A stretch of DNA of 64,000 nt. It comes from Nocardioides sp. Soil805 (lineage in GTDB: Bacteria; Actinomycetota; Actinomycetes; Propionibacteriales; Nocardioidaceae). The stretch is from the NCBI RefSeq assembly GCF_001429625.1, contig NZ_LMSU01000002.1, positions 1 through 64,000 of the forward strand, written 5' to 3'. The notes under the pieces were generated by a model. It saw nothing but the letters and a program-made list of their open reading frames with translations. It ran no database searches and was not told the origin of the DNA. Below are positions 18,468 to 53,753 of this stretch, piece by piece. The first letter of the stretch is position 1; every line of letters begins with the position of its first letter. Made by a program: the position numbers and the translations under genes.

Positions 18468-19178
18468 TCAGGCCGCGTCGAAGCGGAAGCCGACCCCGCG
18501 CACGGTACGGATCCAGCGGGCCTCGCCGTGCTCGCGCAGCTTGCGGCGCACGTTGGCGACGTGCACGTCGACGAGGTGGGTGTCGGCGGCGTGGTCGGTC
18601 TCCCAGACCTCGCGGAGCAGGTCGTTGCGCCGCATCACCACGCCCGGTCGGGTCGCCAGCGCCGTGAGGAGGTCGAACTCCGTGCGGGTCAGCTCGACGG
18701 GCTTGCCGTTGACCTCGACGTCGCGCGCGTGCCGGTCGAGGACCAGACCACCTCCACCCTCGATGCGGCCGTCGTGGCTCGGGATCGGGGGCCGCGGCGC
18801 GGCGGAGGAGGAGCGGGGGCGGCGGAACATCGCGGCGATCCGCGCCTGCAGCTCGCGGGGCGAGACCGGCTTGCCCATGAAGTCGTCGGCGCCTGCCTCG
18901 AGGCCCAGCAGCAGGTCGATCTCGTCCTGCCGCTCGCTGACGAACATGATGTAGCAGTCGCTCGCGGAGCGGATGCGCCGGCAGACCTCGAGCCCGTCGA
19001 TGTCGGGCAGGGACAGCTCCAGGACCACGAGGTCGGGCTGCAGCTCGTCGAGGTGGGCCAGGACGGTCCCGCCGCGCGACGCGGTCGAGACCTCGAAGCC
19101 GGCACGCCCGACGATGTCGCCGATGGCGTCCCTGGTGGCCGGGTCGTCGTCGACGACCACGGCAGAGCGGTGCTCCAT
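18468..19178 (-). CDS. OmpR-type response regulator, Asp-to-Glu at phospho-site
   Basis: 236 residues: receiver domain (1-118) and winged-helix DNA-binding domain (about 140-235, ending WIRTVRGVGFRF). The usual LLDLxLPDIDG reads VVLELSLPDIDG, so the phospho-acceptor position, residue 54, is Glu (codon GAG). Acidic pocket Asp10-12, Ser81 and Lys103 are kept. Glu there often mimics phosphorylation, so the protein may be constitutively active; no kinase gene is near. OmpR-type proteins bind direct repeats spaced 11 bp, and such repeats lie upstream of both the divergent GH26 gene and the GT2 operon, its likely targets. GGGGGGAAG precedes the ATG. Confidence 0.92.
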   Translation of the reverse strand: MEHRSAVVVDDDPATRDAIGDIVGRAGFEVSTASRGGTVLAHLDELQPDLVVLELSLPDIDGLEVCRRIRSASDCYIMFVSERQDEIDLLLGLEAGADDFMGKPVSPRELQARIAAMFRRPRSSSAAPRPPIPSHDGRIEGGGGLVLDRHARDVEVNGKPVELTRTEFDLLTALATRPGVVMRRNDLLREVWETDHAADTHLVDVHVANVRRKLREHGEARWIRTVRGVGFRFDAA

Positions 19179-19409: not shown

Positions 19410-20495
19410 ATGCTGGCAGCGGCCGGGGCCTCCGAGCCCCCCACCCTCGCACCCGACCGTGACCCCGCAGCCTCGGCGCGCACGACCTCGCCAGCGACCG
19501 CCCGCGACCGCCGTACGCCGCGCCGTGCCGGCACCCGGGTGATCGTGCTCGTCGCGGTCGCTCTCGTCCTGGCGTCCGCGATCTTCACCGTCACCGGCGC
19601 CCACGCCGCCAAGGCGCGCGACCCCCTGCAGCGGCACGTGCGCCTCGGCGCCTGGGTCGAGGGGATGACCCTGGAGCCCGCCCGCCTCGACGCCCTGGGC
19701 CGCGAGCTGCGCACCGACATCGCGGTCGCCTCGTACTACTGGGGCTACGGCGACGTCTTCCCGGCGGCCCCCGAGCTCGCGCACAGCCGCGGCGGCACCC
19801 GCGACGTGCTGCTGTCGTGGGACATGGGCGAGACGCGCTTCGTCGAGTGGAGCCGCGGGGACCACGACGCCTACCTCGACCAGATCGCCGAGGCGGCGCT
19901 TGCCTACCCGTACGACGTCTACGTCCGCCCGTGGCCGGAGATGAACGGCGACTGGCAGTCCTTCCAGCCGACCCGCGACGGCGGCAAGGCGTACGGCGGC
20001 ACGCCGACCGAGTTCGTCGCCGCCTGGCGCCACGTCGTCGACCACCTCCGCGCCGCCGGGGTCGACAACCTCAAGTGGGTCTTCAACCCCACCGTCGACA
20101 CCTACGCCGAGACCACGCGGGTCGGCGACATCTGGCCGGGCGCCGGGTACGTCGACGTGCTCGGCCTGGACGGCTTCAACTGGGGCAAGGACTCGCTGTG
20201 GGGCGAGTGGCGCTCCTTCACGGCCGTGTTCAAGAAGCAGTACCAGCGGCTGACCCGGCTGCACCCCACCGCGCCGGTGTGGATCTGCGAGGTCGGCTCG
20301 AAGGAGCCCCGACGCCAGGACGGCGCCCCGCGCGACCACCGGCGCAGCAAGGCGCGCTGGATCACGGACATGATGAGCGCCCGCGCCTTCCCCCGCATCG
20401 ACACCGTCGTGTGGTTCAACGAGGCCAAGGAGCGGGACTGGCGCATCGAGTCGTCCCGCGGCTCGCTCAGGGCGATGCGACGGGCGCTGCGCTGA
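19410..20495 (+). CDS. Secreted GH26-like glycoside hydrolase
   Basis: 361 residues. An arginine-rich N-terminus leads to one hydrophobic segment (about 43-62, ending TGAHA), a signal peptide or anchor. The catalytic domain has the GH26 pattern: acid/base Glu177 in RPWPEMNGDW and nucleophile Glu294 in VWICEVGSKE. GH26 enzymes cut beta-mannans or mixed-linkage beta-glucans; the substrate here is not known. It faces the GT2-LAVTG-sortase operon and its last 29 bases overlap the sortase gene end. Trimming or release of the polymer made by the GT2 is a plausible role. GGGAG precedes the ATG. Confidence 0.85.
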   Translation: MLAAAGASEPPTLAPDRDPAASARTTSPATARDRRTPRRAGTRVIVLVAVALVLASAIFTVTGAHAAKARDPLQRHVRLGAWVEGMTLEPARLDALGRELRTDIAVASYYWGYGDVFPAAPELAHSRGGTRDVLLSWDMGETRFVEWSRGDHDAYLDQIAEAALAYPYDVYVRPWPEMNGDWQSFQPTRDGGKAYGGTPTEFVAAWRHVVDHLRAAGVDNLKWVFNPTVDTYAETTRVGDIWPGAGYVDVLGLDGFNWGKDSLWGEWRSFTAVFKKQYQRLTRLHPTAPVWICEVGSKEPRRQDGAPRDHRRSKARWITDMMSARAFPRIDTVVWFNEAKERDWRIESSRGSLRAMRRALR

Positions 20496-21105
20496 CCCGA
20501 TCGTCGACGCGCACGTCGTCGAGCTCGGCGACGGCGATCAGCCGCTTGGAGGAGCCGTACTTCGGCCAGCAGGTGGTCAGGGTGAGCTTGCGTCCCGGCA
20601 GCGGGTCGAGCACGTGGTGGGCGTCGGCGGCGACCATCCACGGCTCCCGCACGATCCGGTAGACCCAGGTCGTGTCGCCCTGGGTGATCTCGACCGGGTC
20701 GCCGCGGCGCAGCAGGTCGAAGTCGATGAAGGGGTCGCCGTGGCCGGCGCGATGGGCGGCGATGGCCGCGTTGCCCTCCTCGCCCGGCATCGGCGTGCCC
20801 GGGTAGTGACCGGGACCGAGCTCGAGCGCCGGGGCGTCGGTGCCCTCGACGACGGCCCACTCCCAGTCCTCGCCGAACCGCGGGATCCGCAGCTCGGCGA
20901 AGGGCTTCTTGTACGCCGACCGGCTGGCCACCGGGACCGGCACGTCCTTGCGGACGACCGGTCGCGGCGCCGTACCCAGGGAGAGCTCCTGCTGGAGCCC
21001 CTCCTGGGTGCGGTCGGTGCGCCAGTCGTCGTACCCCAGACGCAGGGCGACGCCCCCGGCCACGAGGCCGAGGAGCACGACGACGGCGACGAACCGACGG
21101 ACCAT
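20467..21105 (-). CDS. srtE: Class E sortase
   Basis: 212 residues. N-terminal membrane anchor (5-22), then the sortase fold with His118 (AAHRAGH), Cys179 (TLTTCWP) and Arg188 (SKRLIAV), the catalytic triad. Length and single anchor fit class E sortases of high-GC actinobacteria, which cleave LAxTG and join the product to the cell wall. Its ATG overlaps by one base the TGA of the LAVTG peptide gene (TGATG), so the two are translationally coupled and the peptide is the obvious substrate. Confidence 0.93.
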   Translation of the reverse strand: MVRRFVAVVVLLGLVAGGVALRLGYDDWRTDRTQEGLQQELSLGTAPRPVVRKDVPVPVASRSAYKKPFAELRIPRFGEDWEWAVVEGTDAPALELGPGHYPGTPMPGEEGNAAIAAHRAGHGDPFIDFDLLRRGDPVEITQGDTTWVYRIVREPWMVAADAHHVLDPLPGRKLTLTTCWPKYGSSKRLIAVAELDDVRVDDRVSAAPVASP

Positions 21106-21260
21106 CAGCCGTGACGCCTGGGCATGATCCGTCCCACCGCCATCAGGGCCGCGAGGATCGCGAACCCGGCGAGGAACATCCACATGGCGTCGAACCAGAT
21201 CGAGGCGCCCATGCCGGTGACGGCGAGGGTTCCCCCGCCTGCTGCACCGTTGTTGTACAT
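21105..21260 (-). CDS. 51-residue LAVTG sortase-signal microprotein
   Basis: Starts MYNNGAAGGGT, then LAVTG at residues 12-16, a hydrophobic helix (about 19-43) and a basic tail RIMPRRHG. This is a complete class E sorting signal with almost no mature domain: only about 14 residues would remain after cleavage between Thr and Gly. It has no separate signal peptide, so the single helix must insert with its N-terminus outside. Start is four bases after the GT2 stop, and its stop overlaps the sortase start. It may serve as a minimal wall anchor for the GT2 product, or as a regulator of the sortase. Confidence 0.8.
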   Translation of the reverse strand: MYNNGAAGGGTLAVTGMGASIWFDAMWMFLAGFAILAALMAVGRIMPRRHG

Positions 21261-21264
21261 CTCT

Positions 21265-22401
21265 TCACCACTTTCTCTCGGTGCCCAGGAAGGCCTGGGC
21301 GAATGCGCGGGCCTGGACGGCCTGCAAGAAGATGTCGAACACGAACTCGATGACCACCGGGGCGGCGAGGGCCATCTGGCGCACGCCGCGCGAGCGCACG
21401 GTGACCACCCGCTCGAGGGCGAAGACGCCGGTCAGGGCGAGCCAGAAGGGCTGGATCGCGAAGCCGATGCCGATGGCCGCGACCAGGCTGCCGACGTACA
21501 GGAGCGTGGCGAGGACGCCGAGGAAGCTGAGGAGCTGTCGTCCCCAGTAGCGCCGGGTGACCGGGGTCCAGCCGTAGTCGACGAGGTTCTCGATCGCGCC
21601 GCGCTTCCAGCGCAGCCGCTGGTCGGCGAGGTCGCGCCAGGTCGGCATCACCTCGGTCTCAAGGGTGCACGCGGCCGGCGCGAGGATGTCGTAGCCGAGG
21701 TGCAGCAGGGCCAGCGACAGCTCGTTGTCCTCGGTCAGGACGCGCAGGTCGTATACCGAGCCGGCGCCCGACCGGTCGGGCAGGCGACCGTCACGGCGGG
21801 CCGCCACGACGTCGCGCAGCACGCTGACCGGGAAGACCGAGGCCGTGCCGGTGAGCACCAGGGCCTTGCCGCGCAGCCGGCGTACGTCGCGCTCGTACCG
21901 CGCGTACTCGTTGCGCTGGAACGTGCCCACGAGACCGCCTCCGGGGCCGCCGCGGAACGTGCCGCCGCAGCCGCCGAGGCCACCCTCGCGCAGGTTGGCG
22001 CGGGCGACGGCGAGGAACTCGCGGTCGAGGGTGCAGTCGGCGTCCATGACCAGGACCTGGGCGTGGTCGCCCAGGGTCGGCAGCAGCAGGTCGAGCACCT
22101 GGTTGAGGGCGCCGGCCTTCTTGTGGCTGTTGCCGACGGTCTCGTGGACCTCGACGCCGCGCGCCCGGGCGATCTCGACGGTGCGGTCGGTGCAGTTGTC
22201 GGCCACGACCACGATGCGGTCAGGCGGCCGGGTCTGGTCGCGCAGCGAGTCGAGCGCCGCGCCCAGCGAGGCCTCCTCGTCGTGGGCGGGCAGGAGCGCG
22301 ACGAGAGGTCCCGCGGGCCGGACGGTGCCCCTGGTCGAGGCACCGCGGAGCGCGGTGGGTGGGGTCGTGCCTGTGGTCGTCACACAATGTGATCGATCCA
22401 A
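21265..22401 (-). CDS. Processive-type GT2, polysaccharide synthase-like
   Basis: 378 residues. GT-A domain with PAHDEEASL, DADC (metal-binding DxD), TEDNEL (catalytic) and QRLRWKRG (Q/RxxRW), the motif set of cellulose, chitin, hyaluronan and poly-GlcNAc synthases. Three C-terminal membrane segments (about 288-370) form a short translocation part; no N-terminal helices. Sugar specificity cannot be read. First gene of the operon with the LAVTG peptide and sortase. TTG 22401 is used; GTG at 22383 is equally possible. Upstream DNA carries phased CTTGAC repeats. Confidence 0.88.
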   Translation of the reverse strand: MDRSHCVTTTGTTPPTALRGASTRGTVRPAGPLVALLPAHDEEASLGAALDSLRDQTRPPDRIVVVADNCTDRTVEIARARGVEVHETVGNSHKKAGALNQVLDLLLPTLGDHAQVLVMDADCTLDREFLAVARANLREGGLGGCGGTFRGGPGGGLVGTFQRNEYARYERDVRRLRGKALVLTGTASVFPVSVLRDVVAARRDGRLPDRSGAGSVYDLRVLTEDNELSLALLHLGYDILAPAACTLETEVMPTWRDLADQRLRWKRGAIENLVDYGWTPVTRRYWGRQLLSFLGVLATLLYVGSLVAAIGIGFAIQPFWLALTGVFALERVVTVRSRGVRQMALAAPVVIEFVFDIFLQAVQARAFAQAFLGTERKW

Positions 22402-52262: not shown

Positions 52263-53753
52263 ATGAAACGCACACGACTCACCACGCGGCAAGGGGCGAT
52301 CGCCCTGGCCTGCACCGGAGGCCTGCTGACAGCGGTCGGCCTCGCCGGTCTCGGTCCGCTTGCCGCCACCGCGTCAAGTCACCGGGAGGCGCCACTCATC
52401 TCGGGGACGCCGCAGTACGACACGACGGACCTCTATGCGTTCCGCAGCCCGGAGAAGCAGGGCACCGTCACGCTGGTCGCCAACTGGCTGCCCTTCGAGG
52501 AGCCGGCCGGCGGCCCGAACTTCTACAGCTTCGCCACGGACGCGCAGTACGACATCCACGTCGACAACAACGCGGACGCCAAGCCCGACGTGACCTTCCG
52601 GTGGACCTTCAAGGACCACTACGTCACCAAGGACACGTTCCTGGCCGCCACCGGCCCGGTGACGTCGCTCAAGGACAAGAACCTGAACTACTACCAGACC
52701 TACAAGCTGGTCAGGATCGCCAAGAGCGGCAAGGTCAAGACGATCGTCAACAACAAGCGGGTCGCCCCGTCGAACATCGGCAAGGCGTCCATGCCCGACT
52801 ACGCCGCGCTCCGCAAGGAGGCGACGACCATGCCGGAGAAGAACGTCAAGTCCTTCGTCGGTCAGGCCGAGGACCCGTTCTTCCTCGACCTGCGGGTCTT
52901 CGACCTGTTGTACGGCGGTGACCTGTCCGAGGCCGGGGACGACACCCTGGCCGGGTTCAACGTCCAGTCGGTCGCCCTCCAGGTGCCCAAGCGGTGGCTC
53001 GCCAAGAAGGGCAACGCCACGAAGAACCCGGTGATCGGCACCTGGTCGACCACGCAGAAGAAGTCGACCAACGGCACGTACGTCCAGGTCTCGCGCCTGG
53101 GCAACCCGCTGGTCAACGAGGTCGTCATCCCGCTGAAGCTCAAGGACGGCTTCAACGCCTCCAAGCCGACGCAGGACGTCGGGGCGCTCAAGTACGTCAC
53201 CAACCCCGAGCTGCCCAAGCTCGTCGAGTCGGTCTACGGCATCGACGCGCCGAAGACCCCGCGCGACGACCTCGTGTCGGTGTTCCTCACCGGCGTCAAG
53301 GGCCTCAACAAGGCCAAGGGCAAGGTGACGCCGAGCGAGCAGCTGCGCCTCAACATGTCGACTCCCGTCACGGCGGAGCCCAACCGGCTCGGCGTGATCG
53401 GTGGCGACACCCAGGGCTACCCCAACGGCCGCCGGCTCGGTGACGACGTCATCGACATCGCGCTCCAGGTCGTCGAGGGCGAGCTCGTCGGATCCGCGAA
53501 CGACCTCGGTGACGGCGTCAACGTCAACGACGCTGCCTTCGGGGACACGTTCCCCTACCTGGCCCTCCCGGCCAGCGGCAGCAACGCCGACCCGCACCCG
53601 TCCACGGGAGCGTCCGCCAAGCAGTCCAGCACCCAGGGACCGCTCGACGGCGTCCTGCTGGGCCGTGAGGGCTCGATGGCCATGTCCGGCGTCGGGCTGC
53701 TGGCGCTGGTCGCCGGCATCGGTGGTGCCCTCCGGCGCCGTCGCGACGTCTGA
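52263..53753 (+). CDS. DUF4331 secreted protein
   Basis: 496 residues. Signal sequence (about 10-38, ending ATA-SSHREAP), then the DUF4331 pattern SSHREAPLISGTPQYDTTDLYAFRSPE and a long beta-rich domain. The C-terminus has a hydrophobic helix after SMAMSG and the tail RRRRDV, like a worn sorting signal or a membrane anchor. Function of DUF4331 is unknown. AAGGAG nine bases upstream fixes the ATG. Followed by a strong hairpin, then the TPR gene. Confidence 0.9.
   Translation: MKRTRLTTRQGAIALACTGGLLTAVGLAGLGPLAATASSHREAPLISGTPQYDTTDLYAFRSPEKQGTVTLVANWLPFEEPAGGPNFYSFATDAQYDIHVDNNADAKPDVTFRWTFKDHYVTKDTFLAATGPVTSLKDKNLNYYQTYKLVRIAKSGKVKTIVNNKRVAPSNIGKASMPDYAALRKEATTMPEKNVKSFVGQAEDPFFLDLRVFDLLYGGDLSEAGDDTLAGFNVQSVALQVPKRWLAKKGNATKNPVIGTWSTTQKKSTNGTYVQVSRLGNPLVNEVVIPLKLKDGFNASKPTQDVGALKYVTNPELPKLVESVYGIDAPKTPRDDLVSVFLTGVKGLNKAKGKVTPSEQLRLNMSTPVTAEPNRLGVIGGDTQGYPNGRRLGDDVIDIALQVVEGELVGSANDLGDGVNVNDAAFGDTFPYLALPASGSNADPHPSTGASAKQSSTQGPLDGVLLGREGSMAMSGVGLLALVAGIGGALRRRRDV

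Follow-up and report, generated by a model that had tools for sequence, protein, structure and literature searches.

In a 64,000-nucleotide stretch of the Nocardioides sp. Soil805 genome (contig NZ_LMSU01000002.1, positions 1 to 64,000; hereafter the window), genes for a glycosyltransferase family 2 (GT2) synthase, a microprotein with an LAVTG motif and a class E-type sortase follow one another and face a gene for a glycoside hydrolase of family 26 (GH26). The GT2 and the microprotein are the widely conserved core of this locus, and in its close relatives all four genes are retained as a set. We read the locus as a synthase-dependent beta-glucan system coupled to the cell wall by a transpeptidase, at a probability of about 0.45, with the chemistry inferred from observed genes, motifs, associations and selection. 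The arrangement, found in many soil actinobacteria, points to a hitherto undescribed route by which a sugar polymer would be coupled to the cell wall. The features are as follows.

21265..22383, minus strand: GT2 synthase, 372 amino acids, GTG start (motifs, Pfam, alignment, AlphaFold2 model).
21105..21260, minus strand: LAVTG microprotein, 51 amino acids, MYNN, then LAVTG, one transmembrane (TM) segment and RIMPRR (sequence, codon comparison).
20467..21105, minus strand: class E-type sortase, 212 amino acids, with H118, C179, R188 and Y101 (Pfam, NCBIfam).
19410..20495, plus strand: GH26, 361 amino acids, signal-like N-terminus, Lic26A-like (Pfam, match to solved structures).
18468..19178, minus strand: OmpR-type response regulator, beyond GH26 (Pfam).

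The tight order of the first three genes, described in an earlier note on this DNA, was confirmed when coordinates and gaps were re-checked: the GT2 stop ends at 21265 and the microprotein begins at 21260, leaving a 4-base gap, base 21105 is common to the microprotein stop and the sortase start (a 1-base overlap), and the plus-strand GH26 gene faces this minus-strand string. The GT2 could start at TTG 22401 or at GTG 22383. Pfam E-values are 1.6e-17 for the GT2, 7.2e-26 for the sortase and 1.1e-9 for GH26, the last of which, with the signal-like N-terminus, bears out the GH26-like gene that the note had placed opposite the operon. A search of the genus for the microprotein, over 98 genomes, matched in 6. 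Seven close loci, the window and those of six other genomes (L041-L045 and L056 in our locus numbering), were compared over stretches of 18-19 kilobases (kb) with a six-frame profile scan, and all seven hold the GT2, the microprotein, the class E-type sortase and GH26. They represent five settings, as the window, L041 and L056 share flanks and L042, L043, L044 and L045 each differ; in L043, GH26 lies on the opposite side of the GT2. Because all seven hold it despite differing flanks, the four-gene set is retained as a set. The response regulator keeps its place beyond GH26 only in the window, L041 and L056, and since only these flank-sharing loci keep it, it is probably a neighbour and not part of the system. 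The nearest named GT2 among the matches listed is that of Nocardioides terrigena (90%), a species that also carries the quartet. A second type within the genus (L046-L048) combines a GT2, a microprotein of the form MYD..LA[LM][TS]G and, encoded on the other strand, a class F-like sortase. The earlier note had set a gene-order search as the test of its triplet, which is indeed conserved elsewhere, as the quartet in the seven close loci and again beyond the genus; as a conserved unit it stands in the close loci and gives way more widely, where the GT2 and the microprotein form the core and a sortase adjoins in 18 of 60 loci.

These 60 loci come from a GT2 tree of 102 rows, comprising 76 of the 80 best named loci (573 confirmed) and 26 others; the tree omits L089, L105, L117 and L121, in which the script called no GT2, and L139, presumed to repeat L109, and the GT2s of L064 and L149 are identical. 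The rows divide into 60 loci whose partner starts with MY or has the motif (hereafter MY-type), 31 of a sister type, 8 in which no partner was found (one of them, L128, groups among MY-type Streptomyces) and 3 others (L053, L075 and L135). The counts are of loci, not of independent events, from a sampling that favoured likeness to the window, and the best 80 of 573 give no prevalence. In a six-frame scan, a sortase of class E or F lies within 1.5 kb of the GT2 in the 18 MY-type loci mentioned and in 0 of the 31 sister loci, and a glucanase (GH26 or GH16) in 19 of 60 vs 0 of 31, as seen with sortase and glucanase profiles built from loci of the same set, which other hydrolases near sister loci could escape. 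Both lie near the GT2 in 7 and either in 30 of the 60, and the fewest changes on the GT2 tree are 6 for the sortase and 7 for the glucanase. Fifteen of the 60 rows (L140-L153 and L158) cover only about 3.1 kb and some contigs end early, so that missing neighbours there mean little.

The sister type has another small partner with one hydrophobic stretch and the pattern FVAINT..KxLPK..ETRSIHPDAP. Its measurable GT2s have an N-terminal TM, which is seen in none of the measurable MY-type GT2s (peak hydropathy ahead of the GT domain at least 2.14 vs at most 1.36), and GGDEF/EAL neighbours occur in 13 of 31 sister vs 0 of 60 MY-type loci. The Soil805 genome itself holds a second GT2, of the sister clade (L049 8654-12571; C1, about 1734650-1738570), with an N-terminal TM, a GGDEF-EAL-like neighbour and a partner of 72 amino acids ending in ETRSIDPDAPV; L049 and sister loci such as L118, L124, L127 and L130 look like a trio linked to cyclic di-GMP (c-di-GMP) and built around a synthase, as in the 13 sister loci just counted. 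Among the three other rows, L075 (346-1383) and L135 (6001-7053) have non-MY-type GT2s with a small motif-less partner and a GH26-like (L075) or GH16-like (L135) gene within 1 kb; glucanases can therefore accompany a synthase without a sorting signal.

The pairing of GT2 and microprotein also emerges when the search starts from the microprotein. Its profile alone matched in 21 of 394 genomes of the class, and a GT2 lies directly upstream in 16 of the 19 matches outside the genus; the remaining three are L156/L200, with a NodC-like GT2 directly downstream, L155, with a weak downstream GT2 match, and L154, which is the anchor part of a large protein. Over the whole phylum, the profile matched in 24 of 396 genomes. 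The GT2-linked matches beyond the class (L168, L171-L174 and L181) carry LPETG, LPDTG, LAHTG or LAYTG, and twelve phylum matches without a nearby GT2 (L177-L180 and L182-L189) are mostly tails of larger proteins. The widely conserved core is thus the pair of GT2 and microprotein.

The microprotein (MYNNGAAGGGTLAVTGMGASIWFDAMWMFLAGFAILAALMAVGRIMPRRHG) consists of 11 neutral residues, LAVTG, a hydrophobic stretch that is the only one in the protein, and the basic tail RIMPRRHG, which together make up the LPXTG-like motif, hydrophobic stretch and basic tail of a plausible sorting signal. The N-terminal signal peptide by which sortase substrates are exported was not seen on inspection of the sequence, made without a predictor. 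With the motif first, the hydrophobic stretch next and the basic residues last, the topology is likely N-out/C-in; in 44 motif-bearing relatives, Lys and Arg average 0.39 in the N-tail vs 3.7 in the C-tail. A candidate sortase cut falls between T15 and G16, and the tail up to the Thr (MYNNGAAGGGTLAVT) would measure 15 residues, correcting the 14 or so of the earlier note. Between the window and L041, 20 codons differ synonymously and 6 non-synonymously (dN 0.067 vs dS 0.96, the non-synonymous and synonymous rates), so by its codons the microprotein is a selected protein, under purifying selection. Phage holins gave hits only at E 0.025-0.028 and 14.7 of 100 bits in NCBIfam, and we rejected that identity.

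Across the family, the microprotein follows the pattern MY.., usually L[AP]xTG, one TM, RxxP. Tyr stands at position 2 in 57 of the 60 tree rows, a count biased upward, as the set was defined by 'starts MY or has motif' and the score that chose the starts favoured MY (or MANY). By script, L[AP]x[TS]G with a variable x is present in 44 of 60; the script passed over the LPNTG of L083, counted LAMSG as a motif and counted the LAATG of L133, too far from the TM, as degenerate. In one reading, L044 has VATSG in place of LAMTG. By eye, the GT2 partners of L053 (9974-10330) and L083 (7011-7418) consist of an anchor segment with LPNTG joined to a further hydrophobic part like the sister-clade partner, and the partner of L076 looks intermediate between the types, with LADTG plus ..LNTIGYLLLATRNLLP.

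Sortases are known to anchor proteins and pili. The window sortase has H118, C179, R188 and, in a GHY stretch, Y101, which gives it the His, Cys, Arg and Tyr of class E. NCBIfam model NF033747 for class E is the best of all sortase classes for it at 153.6 bits (next 61.3), just under the cut-off of 160, and like neighbours score on both sides (L087 217.1, over; L056 155.7 and L077 152.7, under). The triad named in the earlier note is therefore in place, its class E label misses the formal cut-off, and for that reason we call the enzyme class E-type. The Tyr is kept in all aligned class E-type rows except L050 (GHL), another of the four sortases of the Soil805 genome. By the GHY that solved class E-like chains conserve, and not by SrtE1 itself, Y101 would correspond to the class E Tyr, which the portion of PMC5148588 used here reports as important for LAXTG. 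The adjoining sortases of the MY-type loci are of class E in 11 and of class F in 7, and the script combined motif and neighbour as follows: motif with a class E-type sortase in 11, motif with class F in 3, motif without a neighbouring sortase in 30, no motif with class F in 4, and neither in 12. In L150 and L153, probably from Streptomyces, LPVTG/LPITG goes together with a class E-type sortase. The four motif-less class F loci are from Actinomadura (L057 4953-5558, L058, L059 and L070); their sortases lie upstream of the GT2, P-x-[LVM]-G stands where A-x-T-G would be, and xP[FW][LVM]G, found in the partner peptides instead of LAxTG, is a possible new class F signal. What class F sortases do physiologically is, in the part of PMC13251363 drawn on, described as unknown. 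Between 2 and 13 sortases were counted in each of the 12 named genomes tested, so that where none adjoins the locus, one encoded elsewhere may act. At another place in the window, positions 52263-53753 encode a protein that looks exported; its C-terminal tail weakly resembles an anchor (16.3 bits, below the cut-off), and it has no clear LPXTG motif.

Near matches to NCBIfam LAXTG_small_WW led to loci with a microprotein, an exosortase and a GT2, where the exosortases reach 72-75 bits in the XrtR model (cut-off 150; three scored) and the GT2 reaches 208 of 520 bits for the XrtP-associated glycosyltransferase (one scored). A scan of 388 genomes of the class gave XrtR-like exosortases in 8, all of them short of the XrtR family cut-off, and 3 of the 8 loci had come up already through the LAXTG_small_WW near matches. 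All eight have a GT2 and six an L[AP]xTG protein; five of these six are small, and all five begin MY; they were found by motif only, and this count is free of the start-choice bias. Exosortases are not known to be related to sortases, and the recurrence of the trio with an exosortase is therefore the strongest sign that peptide processing is tied to the synthase. What we have glimpsed of this version (L191, L192, L193, L176 and L221-L228) pairs an XrtR/P/S-type exosortase with a GT2 and usually an MY..L[AP]xTG microprotein. In the Soil805 genome itself there is no XrtR match at 1e-8, and the neighbour of the window GT2 is a sortase, which places the locus outside the XrtP/XrtR systems.

The GT2 carries DAD, TED and QRLRW, has C-terminal membrane helices and lacks an N-terminal TM. 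Specifically, D114, D116, T217-D219, Q255, R256, R258 and W259 are invariant across 29 aligned sequences. Its AlphaFold2 model (mean predicted local distance difference test score, pLDDT, 88) matches hyaluronan synthases best, and cellulose and chitin synthases rank high too: Z is 26.4 for the Chlorella virus hyaluronan synthase (321 residues, root-mean-square deviation (rmsd) 3.1), 24.9 for the mannosyltransferase PcManGT (289 residues, rmsd 3.5) and 23.4 for the E. coli cellulose synthase (319 residues, rmsd 3.9). The DxD, TED and QxxRW motifs and the predicted synthase fold are those of processive GT2 synthases and uphold the synthase-type assignment of the earlier note, which the model supports; the common fold does not fix the product. 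The N-terminal TM helices that precede the GT domain in hyaluronan synthases are missing, and the alignment to 8sne starts at residue 79 of 8sne.

For the product, the neighbouring hydrolases offer a hint. GH26 matches Lic26A at 1e-40 over residues 77-360, and its Glu177 and Glu294 fall opposite Glu109 and Glu222, which we take to be the catalytic residues of the C. thermocellum enzyme. This places it on the lichenase branch, with closeness judged among solved structures only. Mannanases match only partly, at 2e-6 or weaker, and a mannanase assignment was rejected. Lic26A was called the single GH26 lichenase reported until a second one was found (PMC7157769, in part). Elsewhere, the neighbour is a GH16 of the endo-1,3-glucanase type in Microbacterium (L060; 3.3e-53 to 3dgt), an EglC-like GH16 in Actinomadura rudentiformis (L061), and, in seven Arthrobacter/Paenarthrobacter loci, a GH16-like protein whose best profile match is a 1,3-1,4-beta-glucanase (4e-4). 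Because GH26 is nearest to Lic26A and GH16 glucanases replace it elsewhere, the polymer is probably a beta-1,3/1,4-glucan; the substrate common to the neighbouring hydrolase families would be beta-1,3- and/or beta-1,3-1,4-glucan.

In the mechanism we propose, the GT2 would polymerise and extrude a glucan, most likely beta-1,3/1,4-linked to judge by the hydrolases. We take the microprotein to be its small membrane partner, since the pair persists without motif or sortase and these GT2s lack the N-terminal helices of the sister clade; it would insert without a signal peptide, N-tail out and basic tail in, and may supply one TM helix to the synthase. The sortase would cleave the outside tail between T and G and join it to a peptidoglycan precursor, whereby the short tail, with glucan bound or linked, would be fixed to the wall, and GH26, or GH16 elsewhere, would trim or release the glucan. 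Through the sorting signal, this partner and probably the glucan with it would be coupled to the wall. Least certain is whether such coupling extends to a covalent tether or to priming, for which Tyr2 is a candidate site. In an extended version that we consider unlikely, the microprotein would be both primer and carrier of the glucan: Tyr2 of the MY start would be glucosylated, the GT2 would elongate it, the outward-moving tail would lead the chain across the membrane, and the transpeptidase (in sister systems an exosortase, otherwise a sortase of class E or F) would transfer the glycosylated tail to a wall precursor. If true, actinobacteria would have a general means of fixing a polysaccharide made by a synthase to the wall through its reducing end, with no LCP ligase involved.

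Several observations weigh against the coupling of a beta-glucan to the wall. Of the 60 MY-type loci, 42 showed no adjoining sortase and 41 no glucanase, 15 of the 60 being covered only over the short stretches noted above. The motif is missing at its usual place in 15 of 60 microproteins (16 by script): P-x-[LVM]-G replaces it in eight of the Actinomadura group and LTYAG in three, and the others are three from Streptomyces and L133; one of the motif-bearing proteins has LAMSG, and L061 of A. rudentiformis has neither motif nor adjoining sortase. The link of GT2 to microprotein is an association of genes, and the product is deduced from neighbouring genes alone. The nearest NCBIfam name for the GT2 is PgaC/IcaA, at 38 bits vs a cut-off of 422, and the homology of the microprotein to the sister-clade partner is weak (hhalign probability 18%, E 0.0013). 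On the hydrolase side, the Arthrobacter GH16-like protein has a poor model, which matches GH16 enzymes at a pLDDT of 49.8, no match in a Pfam scan, and an EIDLCE motif that is presumably not the strict lichenase form; the second Lic26A-type enzyme cut xyloglucan well too, according to the part of PMC7157769 used.

Some of these observations suit a reading in which the microprotein does no more than serve the synthase as a structural or regulatory subunit and the sortase cut switches it off, releases it or matures it, with no glycan fixed to the wall. PgaD, a subunit of the PgaC synthase, would be the model. The GT2-microprotein link is kept without a standard motif (the Actinomadura group, Arsenicicoccus), the sister GT2s, which bring their own N-terminal TMs, are paired with a different small protein that has a single hydrophobic stretch and carries a C-terminal KxLPK, GGDEF/EAL neighbours separate the two types (13 of 31 vs 0 of 60), and L076 looks intermediate. 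On its own, however, this account leaves unexplained the repeated association with three kinds of transpeptidase and the near-constant Tyr2 (57 of 60, biased; 5 of 5 small proteins in exosortase loci), and we regard it as somewhat unlikely. That the microprotein is an ordinary sortase-anchored small surface peptide, and the GT2 and GH26 merely co-regulated neighbours, fits the complete sorting signal and the sortase in the same gene string, but a search with the microprotein alone returns a GT2 neighbour far more often than a sortase, and the GT2 link is seen beyond the class too; we think this highly unlikely. The GT2 might instead be no polymerase, adding one or a few sugars to the microprotein or to a lipid, with the glucanases nutritional. 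The high fold rank of PcManGT (Z 24.9) and the missing N-terminal TM point that way, whereas QxxRW, TED and C-terminal membrane helices are typical of processive synthases and the best fold matches are hyaluronan synthases, with cellulose and chitin synthases also high, which makes a non-polymerising enzyme distinctly improbable. The coupling of a synthase-made glucan to the wall thus remains our preferred reading. That microproteins with a sorting signal recur alongside polysaccharide synthases and three kinds of transpeptidase offers a definite candidate role for these enzymes and a possible way in which Gram-positive cells could retain such a glucan at the wall, with predictions testable in soil bacteria (Nocardioides, Arthrobacter and Streptomyces).

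We found no description of a GT2-microprotein-sortase system in the open-access literature, most subscription papers not being searchable; what is known are curated names for exosortase-linked glycosyltransferases and for a small LAXTG protein, and the window proteins score below their cut-offs. PgaCD and BcsA-type synthases have a GT2 with D, D, D and QxxRW, with a separate membrane partner in Pga, and c-di-GMP control is known for Bcs and Pga, whereas GGDEF/EAL neighbours are absent from the 60 MY-type loci. The XrtP-associated (NF053846) and XrtG-associated (TIGR03111) glycosyltransferases, compared by name, resemble the present system in linking a transpeptidase to a GT2, and differ in having a membrane-embedded exosortase and a different GT2 (the window GT2 scores 34.7 bits vs a cut-off of 520); the order in XrtR-like loci is mostly microprotein-exosortase-GT2. 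NF058583 (LAXTG_small_WW) is a small LAXTG protein of like length that 16 of 22 family members match at E of at most 0.1. Its name says nothing of a GT2 or sortase, and its cut-off of 65 bits is not reached by the microprotein (at most 36.8 bits among ten scored) or in any of 394 genomes. RiGT2 of Romboutsia ilealis and BgsA of Sinorhizobium, mixed-linkage glucan synthases according to the part of PMC10374906 drawn on, are GT2s of the same likely product class, which here only the neighbouring hydrolases hint at; the word sortase occurs nowhere in that paper. SrtE1 and the LAXTG chaplins of Streptomyces coelicolor share LAXTG, the catalytic triad and a Tyr in the beta3/beta4 loop, but the known SrtE1 substrates are, in the portion of PMC5148588 used here, chaplins and not a synthase partner. 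The nearest described process is the glycosylation of GspA by LcpA in the actinobacterium Actinomyces oris, where, according to the part of PMC6381275 consulted, the sortase substrate GspA is glycosylated through LcpA, SrtA fixes the glycan-carrying protein to the wall, and lcpA and gspA are adjacent. In A. oris, an unknown glycan is loaded by an LCP phosphotransferase onto a protein exported through Sec, and it is the housekeeping sortase that acts, whereas here a GT2 accompanies a microprotein without a signal peptide, in some loci with an adjoining sortase and glucanase (LCP genes stand outside this comparison).

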